From Diphasiastrum complanatum (lineage: Eukaryota; Streptophyta; Lycopodiopsida; Lycopodiales; Lycopodiaceae), in NCBI GenBank assembly GCA_029204225.1, contig CM055100.1, positions 20,533,589 through 20,597,588 on the forward strand: a stretch of 64,000 bases of DNA. The letters run 5' to 3'. Numbering within the stretch: position 1 is the stretch's first letter; the number at the start of each line of letters is the position of its first letter. Below are positions 2,763-61,845 of the stretch, piece by piece. The notes beneath the pieces are model-generated. The model did not search any database and was not told the DNA's origin. It saw only the letters and a list, made by a program, of their open reading frames with translations. A program made the position numbers and the translations under genes.

Positions 2763-4363
2763 TATGGATCAAGATAGTTGTTGATTGGCCGATCCCACAA
2801 ACTGTCAAGCAAGTTAAATCATTTCTAAGATTCATGGTTTTCATTTGGAGATATATTGAGGATTATGCCAAAGTGGCGGCACCACTCAATAATTTGACAA
2901 AAGGCTGTTAACAAGAAGAAAAAGAGAAAATCAATCTAGGCCACTTGTTGTATGGAATGAGAAATTGAATCAGAAATTTGAAAAACTTAAAGCCCTGATT
3001 GTTTCGGCTCCTATCTTACAGATTGCAGATCTAGATGAATCTTATGTCATGAGAACTGACGCAATTGATATTGCAATTGGAGCCGTTCTATTATAGAATG
3101 ATAGGCCACTAGCGTTTGAAAGCAAGAAATTTATTGGTCCTCAGTTGTGTTATACTACGCAGGAAAATGAATTATTTGTAGTTATCCATGCACTTAAAAC
3201 TTGGGGACACCACTTGTATGATAGTAAGTTTATAGCATATACTAAACACCAGCCTCTTAAGTACTTTTGTAATCAGCATGATCTTTGGAGTAGAAAAGCC
3301 CAATGGGCCAAATTGATGCAACAATTTGTTCATGAAATCTATTATATAAGAGACAACTCTAATCCGTGGATGCTCTTAGTCGGATTGGTGAATTAAATGA
3401 ATTGTCTTTCACTTAGATTTCTACGGATCTATATCTTTCATTCAGAGGATGATATGAAAGTGATTCTCATTTTGGTTGTAATTGGGGCATTATTCGAACC
3501 AGAAGAAATGATGAAAATGTTGGGATGAGTTCACAAGGGTTTCAGTCAACAATGAAAGATAAGAAAACTGTGGAACCATTTACCATTCAAGATGGATTGC
3601 TATTTCGGAATGAGAAAGTTTGTGTACTAGAGGACGATGAGCTCAAACGTAAGATTTTGTTTGAATGTCATGCCATACAATGTGCAGGACATTTTGGTAG
3701 ACACAAGACTCTTGACTTGGTCAAAAGAGAGTTTTATTGGCCTAAACTCAAGCCATATGTTGAGTCATATGTGATATAATGCAAGCCCTATCAACTAGCT
3801 AAGGTTGAGTGTATTAAAGCTGGTGGTTTGCTGCATCCATTGGATATCCCTAATAAGGGATGAGAGAGTATATCAATGGACTTTGTAGTTGGGCTTCCAA
3901 AGACCCAACGACAAAATGATTCTATTTGGTGTAATGGACACGTTAACTAAGTTAGCTGCCTTCATACAAATTAAGTCAAATATAAAAACTTCTGAATTAG
4001 CCAGATCTTTGTTGAAAGATTATTTGGGTCGTATGGATTGCCGAGTGACATTGTTAGTGATAGAGATCCCAAGTTCAAAACCACTTCTGGTCATCAATAT
4101 TTCGTAAGTTGGAAACTTCCCTTAGTTTTGGTTCTTTTAATCATCATGAATCAGATGGCCAAACATAAAAGGCTAATCAGACTGTGGAAGATATGTTGAG
4201 GACATATGTTTCTCATAGACAATCTCATTGAGAAGATTACATTCCTTTGATTGAGTTTGCATACTATATAGTAGAATGCGCTTATGCATGGCTGTCAACC
4301 TAGATCTTTCGTTAATGTGGAGACGAAATCTGTTAAGATCTAGAAGGTTGTAGATTTCTAGCA

Positions 4364-4413
<50 letters not shown>

Positions 4414-4947
4414 CAATTGGCTAAGGATAGTATCCATAGTACTTAAGAAAGAGCTATGTACTATGCTGATCTGAAGAGATATTCCATAAGTTTTAAAGTT
4501 GATGACTAGGTATATCTTAGAATTCCAAAAGATTATAGGACATTATGTACATGCAAGCATTATAAACTATCTACCTGATATTGTGGACTATTCAGGATTT
4601 TACGAAAATTGGTTCTTTAGCTTACAAACTAGATCTTCAAGAAAGATCTACTACACACCCAATATTTCATGTGAGCTGGTTCAAATTAAGTTTATATAAA
4701 TGTGATATAGTTGGATCTAATGAGGATGTATCCCATTTAGAACATTTTTCGCTTAATGTACCTTTGGAACTTGAGAGAGTACTCAAAACTAGAATAAACA
4801 ATTTAGAAATCATTCTATCTTTGAGTGCTTGATTAGGTGGAAAGGTCAAACTGAGGATGACGATTCGTGAGAGAAAGTTGAAAGCATAAAGAAGAACATC
4901 CTCAGTAAGTTCCATTATGAGGACATAAGCAGTTCAGGGGGGAAGAG
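2763..4947 (+). pseudogene. Ty3/gypsy pol remnant (RT thumb, RNase H, integrase)
   Basis: The order is that of a gypsy polyprotein: RT end with a DWPIPQTVKQVKSFL block (about 2785), RNase H with the ESKKFIGPQ and ENELFVVIHALKTW blocks (3115-3210), the integrase HHCC zinc-binding region with GHFGRHKTLDLVKREFYWP (3690-3740), the integrase core start with SMDFVVGLPKTQ (about 3875), and a C-terminal PIFHVSWFKLSL block (about 4660). Stops and frameshifts break it at many points, for example after GAVLL near 3095, after the HHCC block at 3777, and around 3900-4100. It ends at a polypurine tract. A second copy of the same family lies at 28.9-31.5 kb on the other strand. Gag, protease and the catalytic RT palm are absent. 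Confidence 0.85.
4366..4411. repeat. (AT)n microsatellite
   Basis: About 23 uninterrupted TA/AT dinucleotides lie inside the gypsy integrase remnant, so the repeat arose or expanded within a dead element. Confidence 0.95.
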
Positions 4948-5165
4948 TGTTATGTCCATGTCTTATATACTGAATTTGGCACAATTCTAGACTTGGATAC
5001 ATGGATACTCCAGGACGCAAGATTATTAATCACATCTCGTTATTCCAGACTAGGCCAAAATTGTAATTAATAACCTTGTGAGGGCCCAGTTACATATGTG
5101 GAGCTAGTGCATGGGTTAGGACGATTATTGGCACGTGTAGAGTATCAATAGTAATAAAAACTACT
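4936..5165 (+). mobile_element. Gypsy polypurine tract and 3' LTR start
   Basis: AGGGGGGAAGAG (4936-4947) is a polypurine tract, followed by TGTTATGTCC at 4948, the expected 5' TG of an LTR. The next about 200 bases align by eye with the reverse strand of 28862-29049, including a GTGAGGGCCCAG block and a GGAGCTAGTGCATGG block, so the two are LTRs of one family. The right edge is uncertain; similarity is clear to about 5130. Confidence 0.75.
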
Positions 5166-5169
5166 TCTA

Positions 5170-6900
5170 GAAATATTTTTGGCTTTCATGGTAGTGTGTA
5201 AAGAAAAAGTTAGACTATATATCTTGGTGGGAACTCGCCCTACTACCATTAAAGTTTGTGGCTTTTCTCTACTAGTTTTTCTCTCTCTAAGCTTGCATCC
5301 CATCTTGTGGCTTGGGGGTGATGCTACTTGGAGAATAATCGGTGGCTTCTCATTGGTTGGGTGGTTTTGCTCTACAATTGTTCCTTGAGGTGCTTCCCCT
5401 TAAAATGATTGAAGTCCAAACGCTTGTTATATAGGGCTTTTATTTTATGTTAAATAAGATTGACAAATGAAGCCTACTCTTGGTAGCTTAGATCATATTG
5501 ACAAGCCTTTGGCTCGAGACTCTAAAAAAGATGCTCTTAGAAGACTCACATTTGACCTTGGTCTCTTAAAGTGTACATATTTAGAGCAAGTCTAAGCAAA
5601 CACAACTAAGTCTCAAACATTTGAATTAGCTATGAAAATAAATTTTTTGACTGAGTCTCCGATTTGTGGATGAGTTAATCACTTAGTTGTAGTCCAACTA
5701 GCTCTAAAGCTTGACTATGAATTGTGATGACTCCTATTACAATGTGCATATAGGAGCCACAATGACTCTTGGCCAAACTCACGATTTGCGATCTAAGCCC
5801 CAAAAGATATTCTTAGTTTAAAAAATTGTGCAATAACTAAATGCACTTGGTCACTCTGCGAGGAGAGGGATTGGATCACATAATAACTACCATGGAAGAC
5901 ATGTAATCAATAACTTAGCAACTAGAGAAATTCTAAGATTCACCCACTCTCCTTACCAAGATAAGCCAAGCTCAATGCCCACCTCATGACGATGGTCTCG
6001 AAGACCAATTGATGTCAATTTGACTTTACATTCTCAGAATTGATTAGTAAAGACAAATTTGGGGCTAATTACCATTTCGGTTTCTCCTTTGAGCTAGGTC
6101 CAATTGACAAGGACCAGTCGCAATTTTTTCTTAGCAATTTGAGTCAGATAAGATGCATCAACACTAGGCTCGACAATATGCTAATTAGTTGGGTTGGCTC
6201 CAATTTTTATTTCGTTGATTGGCATTTTAACTTGATTGGTTATTGAAAAGACTCATGGTATGTTGGCCTGTGCTGGTTAGCTTGCTTGAATACTTTGAGG
6301 CTAGCTCTATGGAGCTCATCTAGTGTGGTGCCAAGGTAGATCTTGATTTTTGTTGAAATCGTAAGGATTGATTCAATTGATTACGTAGCCATATACAAAT
6401 TCATTTAATGCGTAGAAGTAGAAACAACAGACAGTTCAGACGAAACGATACAAGAGCCACATTACAAAAGAGATGAATTAGACAAGCATTCATTCATTAC
6501 TGACATTAATGCATTAAGAAATTAGGATTGAATCCAGCAAGTACCATGTACAAATCGACAGAAAATGATAATGAGCACAATACAATCACAGTGATAACCG
6601 CATGCCCAAAGCTTATTTTGATTTACAATTGCCAAGATGACATGAAGGTCATACGATGGCTTTACACTTGCTATCTCTGTCTAGATGTGCTGCATAGAAG
6701 TGTGCTACATCAAGTTATTTACATCTTTGTTGCATCATTTGCATCTTCGACACATCTCTCTTTTATAGACAAAAGTCTTATTACAAGAAATGATTATAAG
6801 AATGAATTAGTTTTTAATGCAAGTCGTAAGCCTTGTTCCAGTTATTTATCAACATCTACCAAGTTGTCCGTAGGATCTTCGTTAGACACGCCATCTTATG
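5170..6900. other. No gene recognised
   Basis: Short open frames at 5179-5388, 6040-6246 and 6528-6914 have no family signature and no coding-like composition. I see no RNA gene or clear transposon motif here. Confidence 0.5.

Positions 6901-12558: not shown

Positions 12559-12613
<55 letters not shown>
12559..12613. repeat. (CT)n microsatellite
   Basis: About 27 uninterrupted CT units. Unlike the repeats at 52.3, 52.6 and 54.8 kb, it is not preceded by the LINE 3'-end consensus. Confidence 0.95.
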
Positions 12614-13514: not shown

Positions 13515-14293
13515 CATAGATGCACTGCGATTTTGAATCACGATTCAGAAACGCGTTTCAAGATTTTCCCAAAATCGCGCAGAATCGTTTTTTTTTTTTT
13601 GAATTTTTTTTAGGCAATATGGATGTCAAATGAAAGCTTTGATTGAGAGCATTATGACTGTGTAGTTTGTTGACTGTTTCGGATGCGAAACACCAAAAAG
13701 TGTGTTTTCATCAGGGTGTTGGAAGGCCAAATCATGAAGAGGCCTTACCTTCGGTGCCGGGGTCTACCGGCAGCCCCCGGACCCCGCCATTGGGGGGAGT
13801 TGCCCCCCAAACCCGCCACCGGGTGGCTACCGCCCCCCGGACCCCCTAGAGCTTCCTGCTATATAGACACTATAGATAAAAATGCTACCACCCCCCTGTA
13901 GATAAAAATGGGGTCCAAATGCGCGCTGAGAAGGGCCCAATATTTATGCCCCCAACTGTATGTACATTGCACTCACATCTCCAGTGAAACGATTGCAAAA
14001 GTGATCATCATCCATACAATTGATAGTCCAAACTGTAGCATTAACATTTACTGGAAACCAGAGCAAATGACAACCGAATAGCTACTGAAAATAAGATCTG
14101 TTTGTGCCTCATCTACTGCACTTCTGAGAGGCAAAACGTTGGTTTGACCATTGATCCCCTAAAAAAACTTCAGCCATAAGCTATTTTTCCAATTTTTTTT
14201 TTTTTTTTTGCGATTCTGGGTCGTGAATCGTTATTCGTAGAATTGCGATTCGCGAATTGCAGACCCAGCGAATCGCGATTCGGTGCATCTATG
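13515..14293. mobile_element. Non-autonomous hAT-like element with TIRs and 8-bp target duplication
   Basis: The left end reads CATAGATGCAC and the right end GTGCATCTATG, an 11-bp perfect terminal inverted repeat. Flanks are GTTCGTAT (13507-13514) and GTTCATAT (14294-14301), an 8-bp target duplication with one change, as expected for hAT. Subterminal regions are rich in GAATCGCGATTC-type palindromes next to T/A tracts. No transposase is inside. The core holds a strikingly GC-rich patch (about 13740-13850) and otherwise nothing recognised. The left 150 bases resemble the outer end of the decayed hAT at 58495 (poly-T, then TTTTAGGCAATATGG...TCAAAT). Confidence 0.85.
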
Positions 14294-17879: not shown

Positions 17880-20052
17880 CTTGCCACATCGGTAAACCGA
17901 TTGTCACTGTCACTAATCAACATTCGTATACTTGTTGCATTTCGCACTCTCGAAGTGCCACATACAATTGACCATGACTAAATACGGAACGTGGCAAATA
18001 CAATCCAATAGTGTCCACAATCTGCCCTTGCACCTTGTTTATTGTCATGGCTACTCCCTATATTCTTTTCAATCACTATCTCTGACTCTATGACCTGTCT
18101 GCCTAGTCTACGAATGAAAAGTCTTGTACCATTGCATAATCCCTTGTGCGACGCTATCGACTGCAACAACATCACTATCATGCCAACCTTCGACACCAAC
18201 TTATGTGGAGGGCATCCACTTGATTGTAAGCTATTTAAAAACTCTACTGGTGGGTACACATCAGAGTCATCACGCTCAACCACGCTATCATCACTATAAA
18301 TAATGCAAGCATCACCAAGAAGTTGCTCAACAACTTTCGAATCGATCTCGTCCACGTTTTCATTCAACGGTGTCAATATTGCACGACTTCTTAAAAAATC
18401 GACATCCCTGTAATGTCGTGCAATATCAAGAAAAGTGAAAGAAATCAATTCACACACATCGCACGTCCTTCGACACATACACTTTGGCAAAGAAATCAAA
18501 TCCAAACCACGTTGCACGAATGTGGGCTCATGACCACCTCCAATACTCAACAAATAATTTGCGAACCTCGGTTGTTCATTCTTACCGGCTGCCTCCACAC
18601 CCATAATGCACATGTTCCTTGACAGTTTGTGCACCTCCATATATTTCCACAAACGCGAACACTTCAGTGAAGCGCTCACAATCTATGCATGACTGCCCCA
18701 TCGTACTACCGAGACACCTGGTAGAAATCACCACAAAAAATGATCGAAACTCCTCCAAATGGAGTATCAATACCCAATATGTCCCGTAGAGACCGATCCA
18801 CATACTCGATGACATACTTTTGTATCATGAACCCAACGGAGACTGTTTCGAGATGTTGCATGTCGAGCATTCATTAAGTCCGTCGAAGAATCCTAAATCT
18901 AGAGTGCGCGGTCCTAGCACCTTTCATTAACAATGCAGCGATCGCTGATGATGCAACTGCCAGTGCTATCCAACCTTGTGCACGCACGTATGACAACATG
19001 ACACTATAAAAAAATGTCTTACTCATACCACCCGGACCATCTACAAAGAACACTTTACCCACTCTCGTACCACATGCTCATGTATCACATGGTCAAAAAT
19101 CACGCGCTGATCCACATTCAATCTCTCAATGCTAGCCTCTACCTTTGAAAGGGTCTCATCGAGAAATATCTCTTCGCAAAATAGTGGAGAAAACTCGACA
19201 TCGCTATCGAGAAGTGTGAAGCCAAAATTTGTCAACAACTTTTTCGGTGCTTCTCCACGTCTAGAAGAGCCCTATCTATCATAATCTGACTCACAGTAAC
19301 GGTCTCGCACGATACTGACTGTCCTAGCTCCTCCACGTAATTCTCTACTAAATGAGGCTCTGTAATCATGGGTCAGAAAGGGCACATGTCAAAAGAAGTA
19401 CAATGACCATGAGCCGAAGTTGCGACGGAGTCCCCCATGACACCGCCTCTAGCAGACAGTTACTCCATTCCATCACGTCATTTATTAAAAGTCTACGCTT
19501 GCAAGCATTTCTGAACGACGAAAACAACTCACCGTCAATTGTGTGCAAGTCCTCAAAACTTGTTGCACCTTTGACTTGAGCCAAAAGAACTTGCAAATAA
19601 AATCGCTCTCCTTCAGATGGATGGACCAAATACACACATCCAATGGTCAGAATGGACTATGCATTGATTCTATGGGTCCATCTTTGCACTCTCTTGTTGT
19701 AAACGTAAAATCGTGGCAAGTCTTGGTACAACTCCTCTCGGGCTCCGAATTGCCACTTCTATTCAACTCAAAAAAAGCTGTCAAAGTGGCACTTAAATGA
19801 CCTTCTGTGACCTCTTCTAAGGCCACCACCCTCCACAGCCTTTGCCGTAATCATATCTAGCCCCTTGTACATGTACTTGTACAGATACTTCACATTATGT
19901 ATACATACACATATCTCTACGTTGATGGGACACTGAAAATGTAGTGTCAACCATATGTTGTACGGTACTATCCACATGTTATCTAATTCTATTCCATACG
20001 ACTGCACCTTCTCTCCGTTGTCTCTACGTCTACACGAAAGATACCCATTCAC
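17880..20052 (-). pseudogene. Helitron Rep/helicase remnant (Pif1-like helicase part)
   Basis: On the minus strand the blocks follow Helitron order: VPYNIWLTLHFQCPINVE and KYLYKYMYKG (about 19970-19870), EGERFYLQVLL..VKGATSFEDL (about 19610-19540), LNVDQRVIFDHVI (about 19120), a Walker A region VDGPGGMSKTFF (about 19045) with AVASSAIAALL, a helicase block with FGGVSIIFCGDF (about 18755), DVDFLRSRAILTP, YPPVEFLNSL, SGCPPHKL and GLCNGTRLFI (18420-18120), and [17 protein letters not shown] at about 17990-17940 in another frame. Frameshifts and stops divide it. The Walker A lysine stays but the usual GTGKT reads GMSKT. The HUH Rep nickase part is missing. Dead element. Confidence 0.85.
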
Positions 20053-21865: not shown

Positions 21866-22520
21866 AGTATTTTTCTCAACTCAGGCAGTTGTGGTATCTG
21901 TTTTTAATTTCTGATGAATGGGATGTGATGTTGTTCTGATAGCAGTAGTGTTGATAATCAGAAGCATACATCATGAACACATCAAAGAAAGTTGACACAT
22001 ATTTTGTATCTTTTCTCAATTCAGGCAGTTGTGGTATCTGTTTTTAATTTCTGATGAATGGGATGATGTTGTTCTGATAGTAGTAGTGTTGATCATTAGA
22101 AGCATACATCATGAACACATCAAAGAAAGTTGACACATATTTTGTATCTTTTCTCAATTCAGGCAGTTGTGGTATCTGTTTTGGGATGATGTTGTTCTGA
22201 TAGCGATAGAGTTGATCATTAGAAGCATACATCATGAACACATCAGAGAAAGTTGACACATCTAGGTGGCCCAGGCCGACACAAAGGTGTGTCTTTACTC
22301 AAAAAGCTTTGGGTTCTGTGGATTATCAAACAAGTATATATCTTTTCTGTGGAATTTGTTTTTTAATTTCCGATGAATGCGATGATGTTGTTCTGATAGC
22401 GGTAGTGTTGATCATTAGAAGCATACATCATGAACACATCAAAGAAAGTTGACACATCTAGGTGGTCAAGGCCGACGCATAGCTTGTCTTTACTCAAAAA
22501 GCTTTGGGTTCTGTGTAGAT
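21866..22520. repeat. Four-copy tandem repeat, about 140-200 bp units
   Basis: Units carry CAGGCAGTTGTGGTATCTG (first three), GATGTTGTTCTGATAG, GAAGCATACATCATGAACAC and AAAGTTGACACAT. Copies three and four extend with TCTAGGTGG..AGGCCGAC and CTCAAAAAGCTTTGGGTTCT. The block ends 36 bases before the GH3 stop codon, so on the minus strand it would be the 3' untranslated or immediate downstream region of that gene. Confidence 0.9.
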
Positions 22521-22556: not shown

Positions 22557-25472
22557 TCAGTGAAACGAACTGCTCCTTGTAAATTTTGCAGTAGTCAACC
22601 TTCGACTAACTCCAGTTCTCAACCCAAATCCGTAGGGGAAAAGTGGATCGTAGTGTTTGTCCCCAACATTCAAAGGTAGCTGCTCAACAGTTCTAAACCA
22701 TGTGCGTGGCAATTTGCCTTCAAAATTGTAGTCTCCAAAAATCACATCAGTTACTCCTTGACCTTCCGTTCCCGGAAGCCAAGCTGCAACCAAGGCATCA
22801 ATAATGGGAAGATACGGTTCCACTACAACTGGTCTTCCAGATATTATAACTACTACACATTTCACAGTACTACATACATTCTCAATTGTTTGAACTCCTT
22901 GTGAGGTGATCGTCAAGTTTGTACTGTCACCAAATGTTTCTGCATAAGGTGGCTCCCCCACAACCACAATTGCATAGCTAAAACCTCCTCCTTTGGCAAA
23001 GTTGACATCAGGGGATTCCTCATATACCACCTGGGTGGAAGCGCTGACAGTGCCAGTGATTGCCTGAAAAATCGTCGTTCCTGCAAGCCAAAGCAAGATT
23101 TCTATGCTAATCAATCAATCAGATTTTTGCTAATCACAGGAGGAAGAAGAGACAGCAGCAGATTAATCGCATATAATGACACCAGATTTGAAAATAAAGT
23201 CATAAATGACAGGACTTGTGTTTGTTCACCCTTATAATCATAGTTTTTGGAATGACCGAAAAACATAACAGAAGAAAGTAAAGCTGAATGGTTACCTATG
23301 GTTGTGTTGCCGCTTCCTCCTTGCCAAGTGATTGTCCAACCTCCAGCTTGATAGCCCAGATTGTTGGCATGAGATCCAGCGACAAGTATCTTAGGAGCCG
23401 TCTTACTCAAAGGCAACAACGGTGAGTGCAGGTCTTTACCATTTTTTAGAAGAACGAGAGATTTGCGCACTGCTTCTCTCGCCAAGCTTCTGTGGGACTG
23501 TAACACCGTACATGGCACGTTTATAAGATTAATGTTATACATAAACAGAAGGATCAGCATGCAACATCTTCTAGCATCATATACATACCGCCTCTCCCAG
23601 AACACTGCCAGGAACAGAATTACTGAATGGTAGATCAAAAAGACCAGCTGTAAATTTAACTCCCAGTATCCGTTTGACAGCATCGTCTATCCTGTTCTGC
23701 TGGATGTATCCAGTCTTCACTAATGTGGTCAGATTGTTGATGAAATTCACATAGTCGTATGGCACCATCACCTACGTACAATCAAGAGCAAGTGCACTAG
23801 CATCCGTTAATCTGTCAAGTTTAAATGCATCTAACAAGGCTAACGATATTCTTGGGTTAAGCTAAAGATGATATTACCTACAGTGAAATGCTTAAATATT
23901 CAATATTTTGATGACGCAAAGAAAAGGGGCTCACCATGTCAATGCCGGCATTGATAGACGTAAGAACAGAATAAGTGTAATTGCTGAATGGTGGAGTTGA
24001 GATTTTGTCAATACCTTGCCAGTCAGAAATCACAAACCCCTGCAACCCCCAAATCACAATTGCGATGATGACCCAGAGACCTCTGTGAAATAACGATAAC
24101 AATAGAATCTTTAGAGGATGGGTTACCTTAAACTTGAGATGAGTTTTGAGCATTCTCGTGATGAGAAAGTGGTTGGCGTGCATCTTCTCCCCGTTAAAAC
24201 TTGAATAAGAAACCATGACAGTGGAGACTCCCTTAGCCAGGGCATCAATGTAAGGAGCAAGGTGGATCCGCTTTAAGTCTCTGTAGCTGATCACAGTGTT
24301 ACCCTCGTTGATCCCATTTTGTGTTCCTCCATCCCCTACATAGTGCTTTGCACATGCTGCGACATGCGACCTGAGCAGCATGGTGAAACTAATTTCAGCA
24401 AGGCTCCATCTATAGCTTCAAGGTAAAATCGATACTCATCAACAAAGTACGTCAATTGAAGCTCAGCTCAGCTTACCCGTCTTTGACAAAGGGCTGTCCT
24501 GCTTTATGCTCTGCAGGAGGAGTGCCCTGAAGGCCTAATATGACGTCCGTTAGACTTTTTACCAATATGGGATCTTCACTGTAGCTTTCATAGCACCGAC
24601 CCCATCGAGGATCACGGCAGACCTGCAGACAACGAATAAAACCTCCCGTCAATCTCTCACAACCCCCGTCACTAAGTAAATAAACAAGTCTGCAACTACT
24701 AAAGCAGCTTACCGCAATGCAGGGAGCAAAGACGTAAGGAATGCCTGTGGCACGAACTTCCAGGGCCGTTGCTTCTCCGATTCTCCTCACCAAGTCAGGA
24801 TCTCTGCTAGCAACGTAACACAGGTAGGAAATTAATGAAGAAGTTAAGTTCTTGAACAAGATCTTCAGCTCTTGATCGGAAAACTACCGAGGATTGAGAC
24901 AATTGCAGGTAGTCTCTACTTACCTTGTTGCCCCCAAACCAACGTTGTGCGGGAAAATGGTAGCTCCGTAGACATTGTTATGGCCGTGGACAGCATCAAT
25001 CCCGTAGATGATGGGTATTCCCAAACGTGTGGCTAAAGCCCCGTTCTGAAAGCTAGACACTGTACTTTGCCACAGGCCAACCGATGCCTGTGGTGCTGGA
25101 ACACTACCCCCACCGCTCAGAACACTTCCTGCAAAGCATAACCCCAGCACTGCTAAGCATTCTCCAATCTTCTCAATAAAATGAATGAAGGTGCTAGCAG
25201 TTCACAATGTGAAAGAGAAAAAGGGATTTACCAATAAGATACTTCTGAACAACTGCTGTTGAAGCATTTTCTCGCTCAATCTGAGTCATCTGGCCAATTT
25301 TTTCCTCAAGGGTCATTCGAGCTAAGAGATCTTTCACTCTTGCCTCCACTGAGTAATGAGGGTTTTTGTAGATCGGAGCTGATCCATCAGCACTGGAAGC
25401 CCAGATCTGATTTACTTGCAGAGCAACCAAGAGAGCTACAGCAATAGTAGCTACAGGGATTTGGAGCTCCAT
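22557..25472 (-). CDS. GH3-family beta-glucosidase / beta-glucan exohydrolase, complete
   Basis: Nine exons join in phase with GT-AG introns: 25472-25232, 25128-24924, 24803-24713, 24622-24477, 24370-24127, 24039-23935, 23771-23589, 23497-23296 and 23080-22557, giving 1941 nt and 646 residues, the usual family length. Residues 1-25 form a secretion signal ending near IWA, so the enzyme should act in the apoplast or wall. GH3 landmarks: [13 protein letters not shown] near 53, GIDAVHG with D125, DPRWGRCYE near 183-190, CAKHY with K236 and H237, the nucleophile D315 in GFVISDW, and GEPPYAE near 514-520 with E515 as likely acid/base. The fold is the two-domain plant exohydrolase type that releases glucose from beta-glucans or other beta-glucosides; exact substrate cannot be read. 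No frame damage. All catalytic-site blocks are intact, so I judge it functional. Confidence 0.95.
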
Positions 25473-26400: not shown

Positions 26401-28860
26401 CAAAATACGCTGCTGTGCAGCTTGGCCTAAAACTCATGATGGGCCACGGGCCACGGTGCTGCCAATGTGCGAGCTACATACATCATTGACTGTCTGTCAT
26501 AGACTGCAAAACAAAAAAATATTGTTTAAAGATGATGAAGCAATAGGCAAAGACAGAAAGAGAGACTGAGAGAGTAAGAGAAAGAAATGAGATCACCACC
26601 CGGCTGTCCTGGCACCGGCAAAGACAAAGAGAGAGAGTGAGAGAGGGAGATTAATTTGTATTAATAAATAGAACTGTGCTAATTGTGCCGTGCAGTGCAC
26701 AGAATCCTGAGCGATTCAAATCATTGAGCTTTGAACGCCGAAGCGAAGATAAAACATCAGCATCATTGGCTGAATTGGGCTATATCTGATCACGAATCAA
26801 GATTCAAGAAAAAAGAAAAGGCTGGGCTGCTGGGCTGGTGGCCTGGTGAGTGACAGCGAATCCTGGTCATGAACGTTTGACTTTTGTCGTCGTTGTAACA
26901 CGATGACAGTTACCGTTGAATATGGGCTGCTATGTACGGAGGCTGAGCAATGGAATAATCACTAACAATTGTACGGAAGGATGAATTCCTAGGTAACCTT
27001 GTACTAGATCATGCTTATTTCAAAGCCCATTGTTCTCATATAATGATTCTCTCGAACTTGGGATGTCAACCTGAACCAAACCTCCCAAAGAAACTTTGGA
27101 TGTCAAGCTGATCAACTCAAAGCTGATCAACTCAAACCTGGGACCAAAGAAACTTTGGATGTCACGTTGATCAACCGAGCCAAAACTCCTTGAGTTTGTC
27201 ATGATATAATGGCAAGTCTTTCGGTATCATCGCTAAGAACTTTTGATTTTTGTCGTCATTGTAGGTGATAGTACCATGATGACACTTGAATGACAGCTAT
27301 AGTTGAATATGGGTTGATACTCTTATGTATGGACTTTGGAGGAATGGATTTATCGCTAACCTTTGTATGGTGAAAGCCTCGTGCCTTCATTGCAGGGAGG
27401 GCCCTTGCTAGAGGGCAAGGCCGCGACCTATACGGAAGGCCCGAGGCCCGCAGGCCTTCCACAACATAATGTAAGGTGAGAAGGTGAAAAGAGAATGTAT
27501 ATTCCGCAGAGAGAACGACAAATTTTGGAGGAGAGAGTAAGGTGAATGGATATTTCACTCATGGAGGTGCTTCCAAACTACACACAAAACCTGAGCACCT
27601 AGCATTACTTATGGAGGAATGAATTCCTCGGTAACGTTTGTAACTTCAAATTTTATGGACTAAATAAGGGTCGTTTGGAGGTCCATGGAAAGTCTTTCTG
27701 TAAACCCATGGTAGTAGTGAGACAAAAAGACGAGCCATTATATCCTTACGATCAGTCGACAAACAGCCATATCGTACATAATGTGTGTCACGAAAATCTA
27801 AAAAAAGTTATGAACATGATTTTCAAGTTTTGACTGCGTACGTGAGAGCTGCATATTTTCAAGACTCCATCCATGAGGCTTCTGTATTTTCAAGAATCCA
27901 TTCATGAGGACTTTCTATTTTGAGGGTTGAAATTTACAAAGGTTTATAGAAAAAAATGAGGTCTCATTCCAAGCTTAATGTTTATTCATGTAAGATTTGA
28001 ACATATAACACATCATAAAAATTATTATAGCATGACTTAACTATTCATTTCTTTTCTTTTTTTCTCTCCAAGACTTACCTTGGATTAAGAATTGTTTAGA
28101 AGCACATGGTAAAAACATCAAAGTGTAAAAAGTTTACTGGCCTTTTTGACGAGCATCATAGGGGGAATGAAAAAAATATCACTCCCAAATCCTCTAATGT
28201 TCCTATCTAACCAAATATTCAAAACACTCAAAGCTCGAAGGCATTGTCAATATATGTTAACATTCTTATCTGAAAAACCTAAATCAATTAGCAAGAGAGA
28301 TGAACAATTAAAGTTTTTGAACTTATAGAGAAAGATAACAAGAATAGAAAAGGTGGATCACATTTTCATTGGCTAATTTAAATTTCAAACGCATGTGAAT
28401 GTTGTTGCCTTAGTACTTAGCTTTAACAAGCACAAATTGTTGCAATATTCTGAGAGCAAAGACTCTATGTTTGGAAAGCTTGATCAATCGCAAGCGACAG
28501 AATCTAGCTTCCCAAAGGGAGGAGGGTCACAAGGGAGCCACTTAGCATTAAACTAGGAGAAGGTGAAGTTCAGTTCTTTGATGGCAGAGTAGACCGATGA
28601 ATAAGAAATATTACCAAATTTTTCATAGGCTTTAAAGAACCATTAACCACCCAACCAACAGGAAACAACAAGTCAAGTTCCTAACCGCTTCACCCACGAG
28701 CCACAGTGACTAAGTGCAAGAAAGGAGAGGATCCTGGCTTTTGGAGTCAAGAAAAATGAGCGAGTTTCTACAAAGATATAGACCCCAAAAGTTGAGGAAT
28801 ATTTTCTCTAGGATACCCCAAGACCATGCAAAAGCAACTTGATCTCCTATTCTTACACAA
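26400..28860. other. No gene recognised
   Basis: Low-complexity, partly duplicated sequence with a short GC-rich patch at about 27377-27470. No coding, RNA or transposon hallmark is supported. Confidence 0.5.
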
Positions 28861-28861
28861 A

Positions 28862-29060
28862 AAGCTGTCAATCACCATGCACTAGCTCCATAGGTCCAAT
28901 TAGAGCACCTGGGCCCTCACAAGATTTTTAATTACATTACTGGCCTCGTCTGGAATGACGTGGCATAACTAATAATCTCGTACACTGGAGCACCAGCTAT
29001 CCATGTCAAAGACTATTCCGAATTCTTCATGCAAGACATGGACGTAACATTCTTCCCCCC
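28862..29060 (-). mobile_element. Gypsy polypurine tract and 3' LTR (second copy)
   Basis: Read on the minus strand, GGGGGGAAGAA (29060-29050) precedes TGTTACGTCC at 29049, then about 190 bases matching the LTR at 4948 (shared CATGTCTT, ATTCCAGAC.AGGCCA, CTTGTGAGGGCCCAG, GGAGCTAGTGCATGG). The outer LTR edge is not clear. Confidence 0.75.
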
Positions 29061-31545
29061 TTGAACTACTTCTATTTTCAGAAGTGGAAACTAGAGAATT
29101 TCTTCTTTATGTTTCAACTCTTTCTCATGAATCATCATCCTCAATCTGACCTTTCCACCTAATCAAGCACTCAGAGATAGAACGATTTCTCAATTGTTTA
29201 TCTCTGGTTCTGAGTAGTATTCTTTTTGGTTCCAAAAGTACACTAAGTGATAAATGCTCCAAATGGTTAAGATCTTCATTAGATCCAACTTTATCACCTT
29301 CATGTAAACTTAATTTTAACCAACTTACATGAAACACTAGGTGAGCAGTCGATTTATCCTAAAGATCAAGTTCGTAAGCTAAAGAACCATTTTTCTTTAT
29401 AATTCAAAACAGTCCACAATATTTGGTAGACAACTTATAGTGCTTCCCTATACACATAGTCTTAGAATCTTTTTGGAATTCTAAGATAGACCCAATCATC
29501 AACTTTAAAGTCTCTGGGAGACCTCTTAAGATCGACATAATGCTTAGCTCTATTTTGATCACTATAGATACTAATACGTGCCACTTGCAACATTTCTTGC
29601 ATATCATGTAGAAAATCCGCAACTTTCTAGATCTTAACAAGCTTTATCTCCACATTTATCGAAGATCTAGGTTGAAAATTATACATAAGCATAAACGGAC
29701 TGTAACTTGTAGCAGAATGTTTTCTACTATTGTAAGCAAACTCAATTATATGAATGTAATCTTTCCACTGAGATTATTCGCGAGACACATGAGTCCTCAA
29801 CATATTATCCATAGCTTGATTAGTTCTTTATGTCTATCGATCTGATTCAAAACAATCAATAGAACTAAAACTAAGTGAAGTTTCTAGCTTATGGAATACA
29901 GCTGACCAAAAGTGACTTGGTAAACTTGAGATTTTTTGTCACTAACATCATCAATTGGCAATCCATAAAGCCTGAGTAATCTTTCAACAGAGATCTAGGT
30001 ACTGGTATGAACATAGATAACTTAGTTAACCTGTCCACTACAACCCAAATAGAATCATTTTGATGTTGGGTCTTTGGAAGTCCAACTACAAAATCCATAG
30101 ATATGCTTTTCCATAATTTTTGAGGGATATCTAAATGATGTAACAACCCTCCAGCCTTTAAGTGTTCTGCTTGGCTAGCTGATAGGGTGACCAAGTCCAA
30201 AGTCATGTGTATACCTGGATGACCTGGGTACATCATGACATTCATAAAGAATTCTCTTCTTTAATTCATCATCCGTGGGTACACAAACTTTTCCATTTCG
30301 AAATAGCAAACCACCTCGAATGGAAAACCGTTCCATTATCTTCTTATCTTTCTTAGGAACCTGAGATCCTTGTGAGTTTATCTCTATCCCATTCTCTTGT
30401 TCTCCAGTCTCAACCAGTTTTCAAATGCGACCAAAATGAGAATCTGTTTCACACTTTCCTCTCAATGAAAGATATATATCAATCAAAATTTAAGTGAATG
30501 AAAGTTCATTTAATTCCTCAATCCAACTAAGAGTGTTTGCAACCTGGTTAGAGCTTCTTTCGACATATCAAATCTCATGATCAAATTCTTGCATTAGCGA
30601 GCTTTATGACTCAGATCATGTAAAAATTAATTTAGAGGCTAGTGATTTGTATACACTATAAACTGACTACCATAAAGGTAATGCCTCCAAATTTTTAGTG
30701 CATGTATCACAACAAATAACTCCTTCTCATGAATTGTATAACGCAATTGAAGTCCAATAAGTTTCTTGCTTTCAAACGCTATCAGCCTATCATTTTGTAA
30801 AAAAACTGCTCCTATCGCCGAATTGCTTGCGTCAGTTCGTACAATGTAAGGTAAATCTAAATTTGCGATCTGTAGAACTAGAGCTAAAGCAACCATATGT
30901 TTGAGTTTCTCAAAACATTGATTCAGTTCTTCATTCCACTCAATAGGCAGATTGACCTCTCTTCTTTTTCTTGTTAACTCTACCTTCACATAATCCTCAA
31001 TTGACTTATGAAAGAAAACAATAAAATTGAAAAAATATATAACTTTTCTAACTGTCTTCGGTATTGGCCACTCAAGCAATGTCTTGACCTTACTTTCGTC
31101 TATCTTCAACCCTTCTGTGGTGATCTTATGACCAAGGTATACTAACTCATGCTTAAAGAACTCACACTTGGATTCTTTACCAAATAGTTTTTCTCTTCTA
31201 AAAATCCTCAAGACAGTCGTAAGATGATTTAAATACTCCTTAAGAGTCTTATTGTAGATGAGAATATCATTTCAAAATATAACTATGACAGTGGCCCAGA
31301 TATGGACGAAAAATATGGTTCATCATCTGTTGAAATGTTGCATGTACATTTGTCAACCCAAAACGAAGCACAAGAAATTCACAATGATTGATCTCATCTG
31401 AAAACCAATCTTTTGCATACTATTCAGATGAATTCTAATTTGATGATACCCGGTTCTAAGATCTATTTTTGTGTACTTCTTTTGAAACATCTGCTTGTTT
31501 TGCTTAAATTTTGATGCCATTTGATCTAGTTCATCAAAATATTTG
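29061..31545 (-). pseudogene. Ty3/gypsy pol remnant, second copy of the 2.8-kb family
   Basis: Minus-strand order: RT palm with KIDLRTGYHQIRIHL (about 31450), the FxDD active-site region (about 31270), RT thumb and RNase H in one open frame 31211-30639 (KTVRKVIYFFNF, VRTDASNSAIGAVF, ELFVVIHALKIWRHYLYG), integrase core with SMDFVVGLPKTQHQNDSIWVVVDRLTKL in 30245-29889, then a PETLKLMIGSILEFQ block and the terminal HVSWLKLSLHEGDKVGSNED block (29337-29125) with LIRWKG resembling a chromodomain-like end. The catalytic YLDD equivalent reads F, stop, N, D, so the polymerase is dead. Frameshifts separate the blocks. Same family as 2763-4947, opposite orientation. Confidence 0.87.
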
Positions 31546-40789: not shown

Positions 40790-42160
40790 GCGAGGATGGA
40801 GTCACTCTTAGTGCTCCAAAACCTCTTTGATATTGTCCTAGAAGAGTTTTGTGGAAAAAAGGGGCATTTTGCATCTGAGTGCTATAAGAGGCAAAGAGCA
40901 CAAGAGGAGTAGAACAAACAAGAAACCTTGCACATAAAGAGGAGGATGAAGGAAATCTATTATTGATGACATCAACATTCTCACCAACAGGCCATGGCAA
41001 TTCAAGAGACACTTGGTGGATTGATAGTGGGGCTAGCTCCCACATGACTTATGAAAATGACTTCTTCTCAACTTTACACTCTTTCAATGATGCTAAAAAA
41101 AATTTCTTTAGCAAGTGATGAAGAGTGTAGGATAAATGGTGTTGGTACCATCTCTTTGTGTCTAGAATCCTCAAAAAGTAAGGATCTAGAAAATGTTCTT
41201 TATGTACCATCAATCACCAAAAATATGCTAAGTGCTGGTCAACTTGTGAAAAGTGGTTTGGATATTCAATTCAAGCATGGTGTTTGTTCCATTTTGAAAA
41301 ATGATAATTGCACAACAAAAGGATTTAAACATGGAAGCTTGTTTAAATTGGATGCTTGTGTTGCTATTGAGGATGCAACTAACAATCTTGGTGACAAGAA
41401 GCTTGCAAGGATTGAGGATGAGCATCAAAGAAAAGAATATTTTGAGGATCAACCTCAAAACCCGAGAGCTCCAAGGAGGACCTCAAAGACAAAGGCCAAG
41501 TCATCAAATTGCATGCAATTTTTCCATTCAAGTGTGCATCTTGCAAGGGTGAAGAGCACTAAAGAGTACTATATCTTTGAATCCTTCTTGGATAGTATTA
41601 GTAGACATGAAGTGGCTTGTTTCTTATCTTTAAGATTGATGATGTTTAGCACTTTATGTAGATAAGACAAAACAATGAAGTTGAATGCTTTCCAATCTAC
41701 ATTTGTTGTTAGTAAAGCAATTTCATTGGATAACTATTTTTGTAATTTTTTGAATAGTGTCATAGAAGAAAAAACATCATTTGTTTTGAAAATCCTTGTG
41801 TCCACATGCTTTGTGCATGATCATTCCAATGTAAGGACCAAAGAAAATCTTACATCAATGATAGGAGTAATAGTAGTTTGTTGCTCTTCAAGTGGAGATT
41901 GTAGAATCTACATGTTTTCTACCAAAGAAGTTGTAAATGGTGGAAATACGATCTTTCAAGTGTGGAAGATTTGAAAAATTGAAGAAGCACCTTTGGATCA
42001 ACACCTTATTCAAATTATTGGTGAATTGGACTCAAGTCAAGAGGAGGAGCAAGCTCAAGGCCCTCCAAAAAAAACCTTGAGAAACAATATGGAACCATCA
42101 ATGAATCAAACAAGGCAAGTTGTCTTTGACAACATTATTTATGCACTTAATAACTATAAT
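40790..42160 (+). pseudogene. Ty1/copia gag-protease-linker remnant
   Basis: FCGKKGHFASECYKR (about 40846-40890) is the zinc-knuckle end of gag. TWWIDSGASSHM (about 41016-41046) is the copia protease active site. The frame then gives ECRINGVGTI, DLENVLYVPSITKNMLSAGQL and HGSLFKLDA (GAG-pre-integrase lead-in). At about 41400 it jumps to an EDQPQNPRAPRR segment belonging between integrase and RT, so integrase is deleted. A later linker piece (about 41970-42110) carries EEEQAQGPPKK. RT is absent. It shares family blocks with the minus-strand copy at 43.4-45.6 kb. Confidence 0.8.
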
Positions 42161-45639: not shown

Positions 45640-46354
<715 letters not shown>

Positions 46355-46378
46355 ACCCTAAGCCCTAAACCCTAAACT
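46355..46378. repeat. Short CCCTAAA-like run
   Basis: ACCCTAAGCCCTAAACCCTAAACTC holds two telomere-type heptamers between a CG/CT microsatellite and a CA run. Probably replication-slippage or simple-sequence clustering rather than a telomeric insertion. Confidence 0.6.
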
Positions 46379-46402
46379 CACACACACACACATCATGTCA
46401 CA

Positions 46403-46446
46403 CACTCTCTCTCTCTCTCTCACCATATCTCTCCCTCTCTCTCTCA

Positions 46447-46507
<61 letters not shown>
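46403..46507. repeat. Interrupted (CT)n microsatellite
   Basis: CT tracts 46405-46420 and 46451-46507 are separated by CACCATATCTCTCCC-type interruptions. Confidence 0.9.
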
Positions 46508-50591: not shown

Positions 50592-52322
50592 CTACTGAAA
50601 TGGTCCAAAGTTGAAGTATGAAAACTTCTTTGAGTCATTCCACTGCTCTATAGAAAGATACGATGCAGCCTCCTTATCAGAAAACCATGAAAGTACTCCA
50701 TCTGAGAGCCTGACCAGTTGTGCGGGGAGAGCTCCTGGAAGGGCAGCTCTTTCTAAAACACGTTGCAATATTTCTGCCTTTTCAGTTCCAAAAACAACAA
50801 AGGCAACCTACACCTCAACAGACAAAATGAACTCTTAAAATCTCTTAACATAGGTGTTGAAAGCATCAACACGAACCACAATACTCAACCATATTTCAAT
50901 GCAAGGGTTCTAGCTTAGGTTTCTTATAGTATCCCTTTCAGCAGTGCAAGAGAGCTCGGAGTGTTTAATTAAAGTATATAGTAGGCTTTGTGACTGATTG
51001 AGAGACATATAGCTGATTGTTGCTGTACAAGATAAATTTTGACAAAATCCTAAGAATTATTTTTCCAAGACAAATGAGGGTAGGAAAGGTAGGAAAGTGA
51101 GATTTCTATGAAGAATAATTCCCATGCAAATATAAATGCTTGGTGGTTAATCAGTAGTATTATTGCTGCAGAAGGTAGCTGTAATGGAGACAAATTTGAT
51201 ATGTGGCATAATATTAAGAAGTCAGCAGTTTCTCTATCTCCATGCAGGTATTTATATTGATAGTAATGGTACACTTAGCGTGTAACATTTCAGATCATTT
51301 TAATGGACCATATACTTGGTAAATTGATTGTGCTTTCCGCCTCCAGCTAGATATCTAAGAAAGAATGGAGGCTATATCATTCTGGATTAAGCATTATAGT
51401 TGGACTTTGTAATGGCAGAAACGATTAACTAGATAGAAATTTGTCTCAATAATGATGTTCATTGGTTTTTACAGCAAGAGTTTTCATAACTGAAGGAATT
51501 AACAGCTTAATCAATCAAAGGGAAGCAGATGGGAGCATTTCTATTTGAGTAATAATATGGTATTGCTCTTGGATGTTGTACCCTCAATATCTGGGTGAGA
51601 TGACTGACTAATTTCAATTTTGTCCACATGGTTACTGGAAGATACAAGGTTAGGTAGTATCTAGCACACAAGAGGAAGAATGCAAAAGAAGGGAGATGAC
51701 ACTAGTCGTCACCTCAACGTAGGGTCTAATCAACATGCAAACATCAATGGGAAAAGACCACGAAGCAAGTAAGTGTTGGAACAATCACCATGAAAGAGAG
51801 CACCAAGGAAGGAAGTAAGCTGCCCAAATGTGACAGAAAATCCAGCAAGTGATAGGCGGTGAAGAAGTTCCCAAAATGTCCACGAAGTAAGTAAGGTGCC
51901 CAAGTGTGACAAAAAATCCAGCAAGGGATAGCTCATGGAGAAGTTGCCAAACTATCCACCAAATCGTGCGCCAAGCATGAAGAAATGCTGCCCAATAGTA
52001 GTAGCAAATCCAGTAGGAGACCACAGACGAATCCAGATTCAGACGATGATGACGACACTCATGCACATAGAGATCAAAGATAGCGTATCACCCAACATCA
52101 TGTTGCAGTTAGGCTACCTATCCTACCACATGCACATCACCATCCTTCTTCAGCAGCAGCAAGATGCGATGACAGCATATTAGACCATTTCATGATTTTG
52201 TCACTACTTTGTATGTATTTCCTATACTGTTTTGCAGACGTTTCATATGCTCCCATTGATACGACACACTTGACATCTACTTTTTCGTCTTATATGACTT
52301 TTGGCATGAAAAAGACATTAAT

Positions 52323-52388
<66 letters not shown>

Positions 52389-52597
52389 CTTCTTCAGCAG
52401 CAGCAAGATGCAATGACAGCGTGCTATACCTTCTCATGATTTTGTCACTACTTTGTAGAGGGGATTCTTAGCAATTAGATTTATATGTATTTCCTTTACT
52501 GTTGTGGAAACGTTTCATATGCTCCCATTGATACGACACATTTGACATGTACTTTTTGTCTTACATGCCTTTTGGCATGAATTTTTTTTTAATAAAA

Positions 52598-52629
<32 letters not shown>

Positions 52630-54745
52630 AGACTCTAGATGTGTAGGTCTTCTGTTGAGGGAGATGTATACTCTGCGAGCTTCACTTTTACCTAAGCACT
52701 CAGATATGGATACAGTCAGGCTCATATTACCCAGTTCTTCTAGAAGCAAGACAGAGAGGATATTTCAGTTGAGGATTTTGAAATTCCCGTTCGAAGACCG
52801 AAGACACAGAGTCTATCACATGCATCTAGTAGATCCAGTACTACCAAGTCTTCACGTGCTTCCTGCCAGCCTGCAGCACGCTCCACTACTACCATCAAAA
52901 GCAAGATGATCAGGAGGTACTTTACGTACCAAGTTTGAAGAAAAATCTACTTTCCGTTGGCGTCATTACTGATCAAAAGTTGAAAGTAGAATTTGCCCAT
53001 GATCGTTGCTTTGTGAAAGATGTGAACCAAAAGTTCACAGTCATTGCGGATGGTATAAGAGAGCCCAACACTAAATTGTACAGGTTGAATGCTACAATCA
53101 AGGGGCAACATGGACTTATCTCATCCATTCAACTGAACTGTGGCATAAGAGGCTTGGTCATTGAACTTAGGAAGCCTCAGTTTGATGAGGAAATTGGAAA
53201 TGGTGAGAGGATTGCCTATGATAGAAGACCACTTGAAGTCGCTGAGCAAATCATGTGTGTATGGGAAGCAACATCGAGACAAGTTCAATAAAGGTGGTGT
53301 TGCAAGGGCAAAGAACATCTTGGATTTGATCCACACATATCTATGCGGGCCTATGAGGACTATGTCCTTAGGTAAAGCCTTATATTTCATGACTTTCATT
53401 GGTGATATGTCATGTAAGACGTGGATTTACTTCTTGAAGAAGAAATCAGATGCATTTGACAATTTTAAGAGCTTCAAAACATTGGTCGAAAATCAGACAG
53501 GTAGGAAGATCAAAGTTCTAAGATCAAATAGTGGAGGTGAGTATAAGTCTAATGACTTCAATGATCTTTGTGATAAATGTGGGATCAAAAGACAATTTAT
53601 GCTAGATCATACTCCTGCACTCAATGCAAATGATGATGTGTGCAAGATCAAGGGGATAGGCACCGTTTCAATCCAACTACCTGATGGCAAATCTATGCTA
53701 CAGCAGCTTTGTCATCATCCCGACACTTACATTCTAAGGGACACTCCTTCTCATGGTATTCCCAGGCTCGCCATCTCCTTTCTACATTGGGTATTCAAAT
53801 TATTGACTTACCTGCTGGCACTCCTCAGTGTATTCGTGGCCATCTGTAGAGAGAGTATCTTCAGAGCACATGGCAAGGTCCACTGAGGACGAAGACTGAG
53901 TTTTATCATACACATTTTCTATCTCAATTCTCGGGATCCGGCTGGGTGTCCTATAGTACCTGGATATTTGGTGGAGAGTATCTCACATAGACTGCGGATT
54001 GAGATGGGTCAGTTTCGGATTTCCTCACACCAGCTAGCCATTGAGACTGCAGATATAGTAGCACACCGCGAGAGGCTTGGATTTGTGGTATGTGAGATAG
54101 AGGATGAGTTCCATTTTCTCTTCAGATGTCCGGCTTATTATGAGATCTGTGGGAGATATTACTGCTTGTTCTGAGATCACCCAGCCACACTCTCTACCTT
54201 GATATCATATGAGGATCCCAAATGCGTTGCACTGATGATTCGGGAGATGTCAGATTTGAGGACAGTGAGACTAGACACGGACACCCCCCCCCCCCCTTGT
54301 TACAGCTGAGCATCAGGGAGTGCTTATCTCATCGGAGACAGAGACAGGAGAGCAGTGATTCTGATGGAGAGGCTGAGATTCCAGATGCTTCCATACATAG
54401 ACGTCAAAGATAGTGTAGATGCCCAAAGAGACGACCAGCCCATAGGCCACAGCCCACAGCTCCACGGCAGCAGAGACGACACCGACACTTCACTCAGAGA
54501 CAGATATCTACAACCTGCCGTCCAGTAACAGTTTCACAGCATACTATACACCATTATTTTACCGGTGGAGGGACATCTACTTTATCATGATGATGGACTG
54601 TGACTTTGCTAGCCATCTTCTAGCTTTTTTTAGCAGTTATTGTTTCTATAGATGTTTGAGCTTTTACGCTCCTATTGTGCATACTTGACATGTACCTTTT
54701 ATTAGTCTTATATACCTTAGGGTATTTCAAGGACATTAATAAAGA

Positions 54746-54812
<67 letters not shown>

Positions 54813-58494: not shown

Positions 58495-60349
<1,855 letters not shown>

Positions 60350-60350
<1 letters not shown>

Positions 60351-61845
60351 TTTGACCAGAGAGGGGTTACAGAGGCACCTGGATTGCTTACAAGGCTTTT
60401 GTACTAGATGGGGACTAGGGGTGAACATTGTGAAGACCAAGGTTATGGTCTTCAACACTTCTCGAGCTTTCATGGAGCGTCAGGATCTCACTCTCGATGG
60501 ACAGACCCTAGAGGTAGTTTCTTCTTACACTTATTTGGGGATACTTTTCTCTGGACCTTTAGCATGCGAAAGGAAGCTACCACTCGACTTGGGAAGGGGC
60601 ATGCCTCCCTTGTTCAGCTAGAGCGGTTTTGCTTCAGGAAGTCCATTCGTTATGCTCGAAGTGTAGACTTTTTGATACTATTGTCACCCCCACAGCCTTG
60701 TATGTAGCAGAGACATGGTGTAGAGGTCTTCCCCATCACACTAGGCCAGTATCTCGTGACTATAGACCACCATGTTAGTTCGTATGATTCGGGCGAAGCC
60801 CTCTGTTCCACACGAGATCCTCCTTGCAAAGTTTGTCGTTCCACCTATTACTGCGTTTATTCAGAGAGTTTAGGCTCTTCCAGATGCAAATGGGAGATAT
60901 ACACAAATAGCACTTGCTTCCTCACATACATTACCTTCATAATCTAGGATACAGGTTGTCGTGGTTCTCTCATGCATCCCACTTCCTCCTTGAGTCATTT
61001 GATGTCTCCATTACAGAGCTCCCCTTAGGTACTCATCAGTATATCAGACGCTTCCCATGTCGGGTATATCTCGATCGTTCTTGGAGGCGACAACTTGGGG
61101 GTTAAGCCTGACGGACTCATTTCATTGAGCTAGACATAGCAGGGTTCCCAGTTTTGCCACACTATTTGGACTTGAGATTATCACACAACCTTAGATTTAC
61201 ATTGGGATAGCTCCGCGTATCATCACATCAGCTGCCTATTGAGACTGGGAGGTTCCATAGTATCACGAGAGAGGAGTGGATTTGCCAATTATGTTCCTTG
61301 GATGAGGTGGAGTCAGAGGAGCACTTTATCTTTAGGTGCCCTGTATACTATGAGATCAGAGGGAGATACCACTGTCTGTTTCGCGACACGCCCGTCACAC
61401 AATCACTCAGCCTATGAGGACTCCCGCTGCTCCTTCTCTAGAAGAAGACGACGGGACCAAGCATTTGGTGATGATGATGACGACTTACCCGCTCATAGAG
61501 ATCAGAAACAACGTCCCACTCATACTCATGTTGTAGCACGACTACTCAACCTATCATGAGGAGACCTCATCCTCCTAGACGACATCAACGACCACTAGCG
61601 GTCTGCCATGTTGCAACTTGTATTACATCTTTCTATAGCATCAGCAAGACAGGACTGGATGATAGTGTCATACATCATTCATGACATTTAGTCGTATCTA
61701 TGCTCCCACATATTTCATATTTCATATCTCATCACATTTATTTCAGTTCATAGTATTTAAATATGTTATTCCTGTTACTGTTTCAGAGATGTTTCATACG
61801 CTCCCACTGTTAGCACTTACTTGACATGTACATTTACTAGTCCGC
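60350..61845 (+). pseudogene. LINE reverse transcriptase C-terminal part and 3' end, copy D
   Basis: GLQRHLDCLQGFCTRWGLG, VNIVKTKVMVFNTSR and SYTYLGILFSGP (60380-60560) are the post-palm thumb blocks of a LINE RT. After damaged frames, SHQLPIET and WICQLC...EEHFIFRCPVYYEI (61225-61360) form the C-terminal CX2C...HX4C motif. The 3' end shows TTTCATACGCTCCCACTG and ACTTGACATGTACATTTACTAG (61790-61840) but stops before the TTAATAAA/CT tail. It is truncated at the left where it joins the hAT remnant. Confidence 0.8.

Follow-up and report, generated by a model that had tools for sequence, protein, structure and literature searches.

CT microsatellites stand directly behind the 3′ ends of three decayed LINE copies in the 64-kb stretch of DNA analysed here (the window), which raises the question of whether such a tract belongs to the retroelement or to the site where the element landed. 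A search of the window with a four-sequence nucleotide profile (nhmmer) gave four LINE 3′ ends, starting at 52228 (copy A), 52500 (copy B), 54644 (copy C), and 61779 (copy D), with E values from 1.8e-27 (best, A) to 4.1e-17 (weakest, D). Beyond A–D, no match of this profile in the window was better than E 2.5. Leave-one-out profiles run against the CT-masked window recovered A at E 2.3e-22, B at 1.1e-17, C at 1.9e-08, and D at 3.8e-10. Self-comparison of the window by blastn with simple repeats masked linked A–B, A–D, B–D, C–D, and A–C, and the B–C pair was absent from this comparison. The similarity of A and B was 76 percent over 214 columns and that of A and C was 68 percent over 110 blastn columns; judged by their sequences, A/B and C are two divergent subtypes.

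The complete 3′ ends contain an ordered segment, as the earlier note had described: TTTCATA.GCTCCCATTG or a variant of it, then TTGACATGTAC, then TTAATAAA, then CT. This order was confirmed both by direct reading and by the search. The motifs of A are TTTCATATGCTCCCATTG, TTGACATCTAC (one change from the TTGACATGTAC of the earlier note), and TTAATAAA at 52318-52325. Copy B carries TTTCATATGCTCCCATTG, TTGACATGTAC, and TTAATAAA at 52589-52596, and C carries the more divergent variant TTTTACGCTCCTATTG followed by TTGACATGTAC and TTAATAAA at 54736-54743. Copy D, a fourth copy that had been said to share the consensus and to be cut before the tail, has TTTCATACGCTCCCACTG and then TTGACATGTAC; its match indeed stops at 61842 (..TTTACTAGTC), so that AATAAA and the tail are both missing. 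The features are summarized in Table 1.

Table 1. LINE copies, CT tails, and predicted hairpins in the window.
Feature	Position	Strand	Description	Basis
LINE copy A	52009..52326	+	5′-truncated 3′ part, ends in TTAATAAAA; 5′ boundary approximate	blastn to D 61437-61576 and 61762-61835; MAFFT alignment; nhmmer 52228-52326, E 1.8e-27
CT tail of A	52327..52385	+	59 bp, perfect; one A after TTAATAAA	
LINE copy B	52386..52597	+	5′-truncated 3′ part	nhmmer 52500-52597, E 5.9e-25
CT tail of B	52598..52629	+	32 bp; one A after TTAATAAA	
LINE copy C	53704..54745	+	5′-truncated, decayed coding end and 3′ end; 5′ boundary approximate	blastn 53965-54190 to D 61163-61400; nhmmer 54644-54743, E 1e-20
CT tail of C	54746..54810	+	65 bp, regular from 54750; GA, then TC after TTAATAAA	
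LINE copy D	60337..61842	+	reverse transcriptase end 60337-60618, zf-RVT 61211-61414, 3′ core to 61842	nhmmer of 3′ core 61779-61842, E 4.1e-17
Predicted hairpin, copy A	52287..52316	+	GTCTT/AAGAC outer stem	RNAfold -5.6 kcal/mol, z -1.99
Predicted hairpin, copy B	52564..52579	+	inner stem only	RNAfold -9.6 kcal/mol, z -3.13
Predicted hairpin, copy C	54705..54734	+	GTCTT/AGGAC outer stem, ATACC/GGTAT inner stem	RNAfold -11.9 kcal/mol, z -1.65

In regards to the coding region, the reverse transcriptase end of D matched Pfam RVT_1 at E 0.0028 and its zf-RVT region matched at E 0.0022, both under the curated cut-offs, and the 94 residues of the reverse transcriptase end gave no match in PDB. Positions 53893-54171 of C are homologous to the zf-RVT region of D (BLASTP 31/57 identical, E 5e-17), and the region of C alone gave no zf-RVT match in Pfam. 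Copies A, B, and C start at different points (~52009, 52386, and ~53704) and have the 3′ end in common, a pattern of 5′ truncation at a constant 3′ end. In the self-comparison of the window the copies were not flanked by a long repeat pair, and no intact LINE copy was found within its 64 kb. On these sequence features A–D are classed as a non-LTR retrotransposon (LINE), whose coding region is preserved only at its end, with weak domain matches. Plant L1s carry a zf-RVT-like region after the reverse transcriptase, and the copies described here are similar to them in this respect, by a weak match.

All three complete 3′ ends (A, B, and C) run into CT, and each is followed by at least 31 CT-type bases. 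The spacing between AATAAA and CT is 1 base in A, 1 base in B, and 2–6 bases in C. A (CT)4+ run was found within 10 bases of AATAAA at 3 of the 46 occurrences on the + strand, namely A, B, and C, and at 0 of 30 on the - strand; the corresponding counts for TTAATAAA in the window were 3/6 and 0/3. As background, 0.26 percent of the + strand positions have a (CT)4+ start within 10 bases, and chance placement at three independent ends would have a probability of about 1.7e-8. With the stricter (CT)8+, 2 of the 46 + strand AATAAA (A and C) were retained against a background of 0.137 percent of positions, which gives about 1.9e-6 for two independent ends (0.00137 squared). Copy B drops out of the stricter count because a G at 52607 interrupts its tract, splitting the CT into 9 bp and 22 bp. 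These results indicate that the association of AATAAA with CT is far from chance.

The number of independent tails depends on the relation of A and B. Copy B starts exactly at the end of the CT tract of A (52386), 163 of the 185 gap-free aligned positions are identical between the two, and B contains a 28-base stretch that is missing from A, part of which resembles D in the alignment by eye. Copy B in the tail of A could be a nested insertion or the product of a tandem duplication, and since both are possible, we counted two to three independent tails. Should A and B derive from the duplication of a single copy, two would remain. Both the position of B at the point where the tract of A stops and the identity of the two copies would be expected if A/B were one insertion that was later duplicated and if its tract and that of C had arisen independently, by coincidence, in a window that is rich in CT, with eight (CT)8+ tracts in six loci, all reading CT on the + strand. 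Even so, two independent ends still give the probability of about 1.9e-6 calculated above, and we regard such a coincidence as highly improbable.

A CT tract at the 3′ end could also be target DNA, if the LINE inserts into pre-existing CT microsatellites. Kibi is a microsatellite-specific LINE in (TC)n. The copies in the window are similar to Togen, some HERO families, and Kibi in that a LINE stands beside a dinucleotide microsatellite; they differ from these microsatellite-targeting LINEs in that A and C have CT at the 3′ side alone. Microsatellite-specific LINEs include Togen in (TG)n and some HERO families (PMC4640811), and B has CT on both sides, its 5′ CT being the tail of A. Insertion into CT would predict CT on the 5′ side as well. 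The longest CT run in the 5′ flanks, which are approximate, was 2 bases in A (69 bases) and 3 bases in C (66 bases), and the 5′ flank of C is Copia-like coding sequence; the lack of 5′ CT in A and C therefore argues against CT as the target. After the CT tracts, the longest A run was 2, 1, and 4 bases in 35, 61, and 60 bases (A, B, and C, respectively), and no poly(A) was found in these 35–61 bases. With no CT run in the 5′ flanks of A and C and no poly(A) behind the tracts, the copies are better explained by a 3′ tail than by a CT target site, and we consider insertion into pre-existing CT decidedly unlikely.

We compared the flanks for target duplications in five combinations, and none exceeded random flanks, the copies being old and their 5′ boundaries approximate. 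Tested after CT, random flanks scored as well in 186/300 cases for C, 297/300 for A and B together (after the CT of B), and 287/300 for A; tested after AATAAA, they scored as well in 132/300 cases for C and 300/300 for A. A target duplication between AATAAA and the CT tract, the arrangement that the earlier note had set against its own proposal, would have to fit into 1 base in A and B, where there is no room, and into at most 6 bases in C. The proposal itself, that the CT tail is part of the element, is partly supported, in that 3/3 complete ends from two subtypes have the tail at a spacing of 1, 1, and 2–6 bases. Duplications enclosing the whole unit together with its CT tract were not found with the approximate 5′ boundaries, and A and B are perhaps not independent. 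These observations support the view that the CT tract behaves like a part of the element.

The sequence just upstream of TTAATAAA can be folded into a hairpin in 3/3 ends by RNAfold. The predicted inner stems are ATGAC-TTTT-GGCAT in A (one mismatch), ATGCC-TTTT-GGCAT in B, and ATACC-TTAG-GGTAT in C. The outer stem is mostly lost in B, where a T run replaces the 3′ side of the outer stem of A, and one pair of C is changed on both sides in comparison with A and B (G-C to A-U). The aligned stems were paired in 81.8 percent of cells, compared with 30.3–48.5 percent for slid versions. Covariation in the three sequences was not significant: 107 to 336 of 500 shuffles reached the observed values in the five measures, including 151/500 for paired cells and 107/500 for the covariation score. 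The hairpin can form in these predictions and is a lead, not proof. No RNA family matched at the gathering thresholds, no tRNA genes were found, and an exact pattern for part of the 3′ core gave 0 viral and 0 prokaryote matches in the collections, as expected for a eukaryotic element. A contrast in conservation between the 3′ core and the coding region (Fisher p 0.004 and 0.008 for C–D; p 1.0 for the core against the spacer in A–D) was dropped, since shuffled sequence reached 72–73 percent gap-free identity under the same scoring.

The probable explanation, in our judgement, is that A–D are decayed copies of one LINE family whose RNA ends in the 3′ core, a probable short hairpin, AAUAAA, and a CU repeat. 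If this family behaves like the stringent-type LINEs, its own reverse transcriptase would bind both the 3′ core and the hairpin and would begin first-strand synthesis inside the CU repeat at the nicked target. Priming in the CU repeat would leave out the poly(A) directed by AAUAAA, and every new copy would have (CT)n at its 3′ end without poly(A). Replication slippage after insertion would then alter the length of the tract and keep it regular. The regular tracts sit on decayed bodies, which suggests that such slippage set part of the present tract length. By simple arithmetic, in the absence of slippage the probability that a tract of this length stays perfect is 9 to 0.16 percent at assumed divergences of 4 to 10 percent.

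The same observation would also be accounted for if the element carried a very short CT end (e.g. ACTCT) and the long tracts were the product of later growth by slippage. No substitution is seen in the regular tracts of A (59 bp) and C (61 bp), although their bodies are decayed, so that later regularisation is likely, although the percentages above do not strongly force it, and long CT tracts without a LINE end occur at 12559, 46255, and 58774. Against this reading, a short seed need not always expand, and 31 or more CT-type bases follow 3/3 complete ends; simple-repeat ends are also common in green-algal LINEs and plant RTE LINEs (PMC3747384). We rate growth from a short seed as unlikely. If it were the case, the LINE would remain a source of microsatellites, but its reverse transcriptase would not make use of the tail as a repeat.

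Simple-repeat 3′ ends of other kinds have already been tabulated for LINEs (PMC3747384). In Table 3 of that work, the 3′ repeats of flowering-plant L1 are (A)n in 224 of 233 families and none in 9, and those of seven flowering-plant RTE families are (TTG)n or (TTGATG)n. The green-algal LINEs in the same table have (CATA)n, (CA)n, (CAA)n, (TAA)n, (ATT)n, (CTATTT)n, (CCAT)n, (ACAATG)n, (CTTGTAA)n, and (A)n (PMC3747384). Table 3, which dates from 2012–2013 and covers flowering plants and green algae only, does not include (CT)n and has no entry for LINEs of ferns, mosses, or gymnosperms (PMC3747384). The LINE described here is similar to the plant RTE-clade and green-algal LINEs (RandI, RTEX, and algal L1) in that a simple 3′ repeat replaces poly(A), whereas theirs is (TTG)n, (CA)n, and so on, and here it is (CT)n (PMC3747384). 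It differs from the plant L1 clade, the ends of which are mostly (A)n (the 224/233 flowering-plant families of PMC3747384), in having no poly(A). A 3′ hairpin is conserved in one L1 lineage, which comes mainly from maize and sorghum (PMC3747384).

In regards to the stringent-type LINEs, the proteins of two zebrafish elements bind their RNA at a stem-loop in the 3′ tail, and the repeat units of ZfL2-1 and ZfL2-2 appear in a figure legend of the same paper (PMC4176376). Our copies are similar to UnaL2, ZfL2-1, and ZfL2-2 in the conserved 3′ end, the possible stem-loop near the end, and the terminal short repeat, and they differ in the repeat unit, which is CT. A search of one open-access library returned nothing relevant on a CT-tailed LINE or on microsatellite genesis; (CT)n cannot be searched as a term, and the result does not prove that such reports are absent. 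Judged from one window, the CT-tailed LINE would add a new repeat unit to the known LINEs that end in simple repeats. If the tail belongs to the family, (CT)n would join the listed 3′ repeats of plant and algal LINEs, and such a tail without poly(A) would allow one to ask what the reverse transcriptase recognises.

The CT/GA tracts of at least 16 bp in the window lie at 12559, 46255-46507, 52327, 52608, 54750, and 58774, and none reads GA on the + strand. LINE ends account for 3/6 CT loci in the 64 kb. The loci at 12559, 46255-46507, and 58774-59009 were rejected as LINE ends, as the 3′-end profile gave nothing there. The locus at 58774-59009 is a perfect (TC)118 of 236 bp without a LINE end. 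The LINE thus accounts for half of these loci and not for all of them. Extrapolating from one window with 3/6 CT loci at LINE ends, the LINE may seed a share of the CT microsatellites of the genome. Provided that the tail is characteristic of the family, a part of the CT/GA microsatellites of the genome would have a known birth event instead of growth by chance out of short repeats, and their ages would be readable from the attached LINE bodies. A further possibility, which we consider unlikely, is that a LINE whose RNA ends in a CU repeat spreads CT microsatellites and in turn prefers to land in them, with a mutual increase of the two in the genome. The nicked GA ends would in that case pair with the CU tail, for which B in the tail of A may be compared.

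The piece on the 5′ side of C (53281-53886) matched Pfam rve at E 2.3e-7, just under the cut-off, and Pol_BBD at E 0.0092. It has translated matches in the window at 41111-41293 and 45280-45023, the latter within a piece bearing Pol_BBD and gag_pre-integrs, and its element type is probably Copia. The Copia-like fragment between B and C (52903-53704) looks circularly permuted: VLYVPSLKK lies near the left end (from ~52917) and DGKSML closes the fragment on the right (to 53700), and the matching stretches are adjacent at 41111-41293.

Several other repeats and gene remnants were observed in the window; by the resemblance of its gene and element remnants, the DNA is probably of plant origin. One repeat occurs twice in opposite orientation, at 2769-5366 and 28645-31087, with 67 percent identity; it may be an LTR element, since reverse transcriptase RNase H domains lie at 30642-31211. 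A remnant of a Pif1-like helicase at 17981-18679 on the - strand (Pif1_2B_dom, E 2.4e-15) possibly belongs to a Helitron. A common repeat of ~115 bp is present at 13539-13651 and 58508-58619 in the same orientation with 71 percent identity, and a 76-bp unit occurs in two copies at 51808-51959, upstream of LINE copy A. A tandem repeat with three copies of a 138-bp unit lies at 21867-22261, and a match to glycosyl hydrolase family 3 was found at 23881-24381, in a stretch ~1.6 kb from this tandem repeat.
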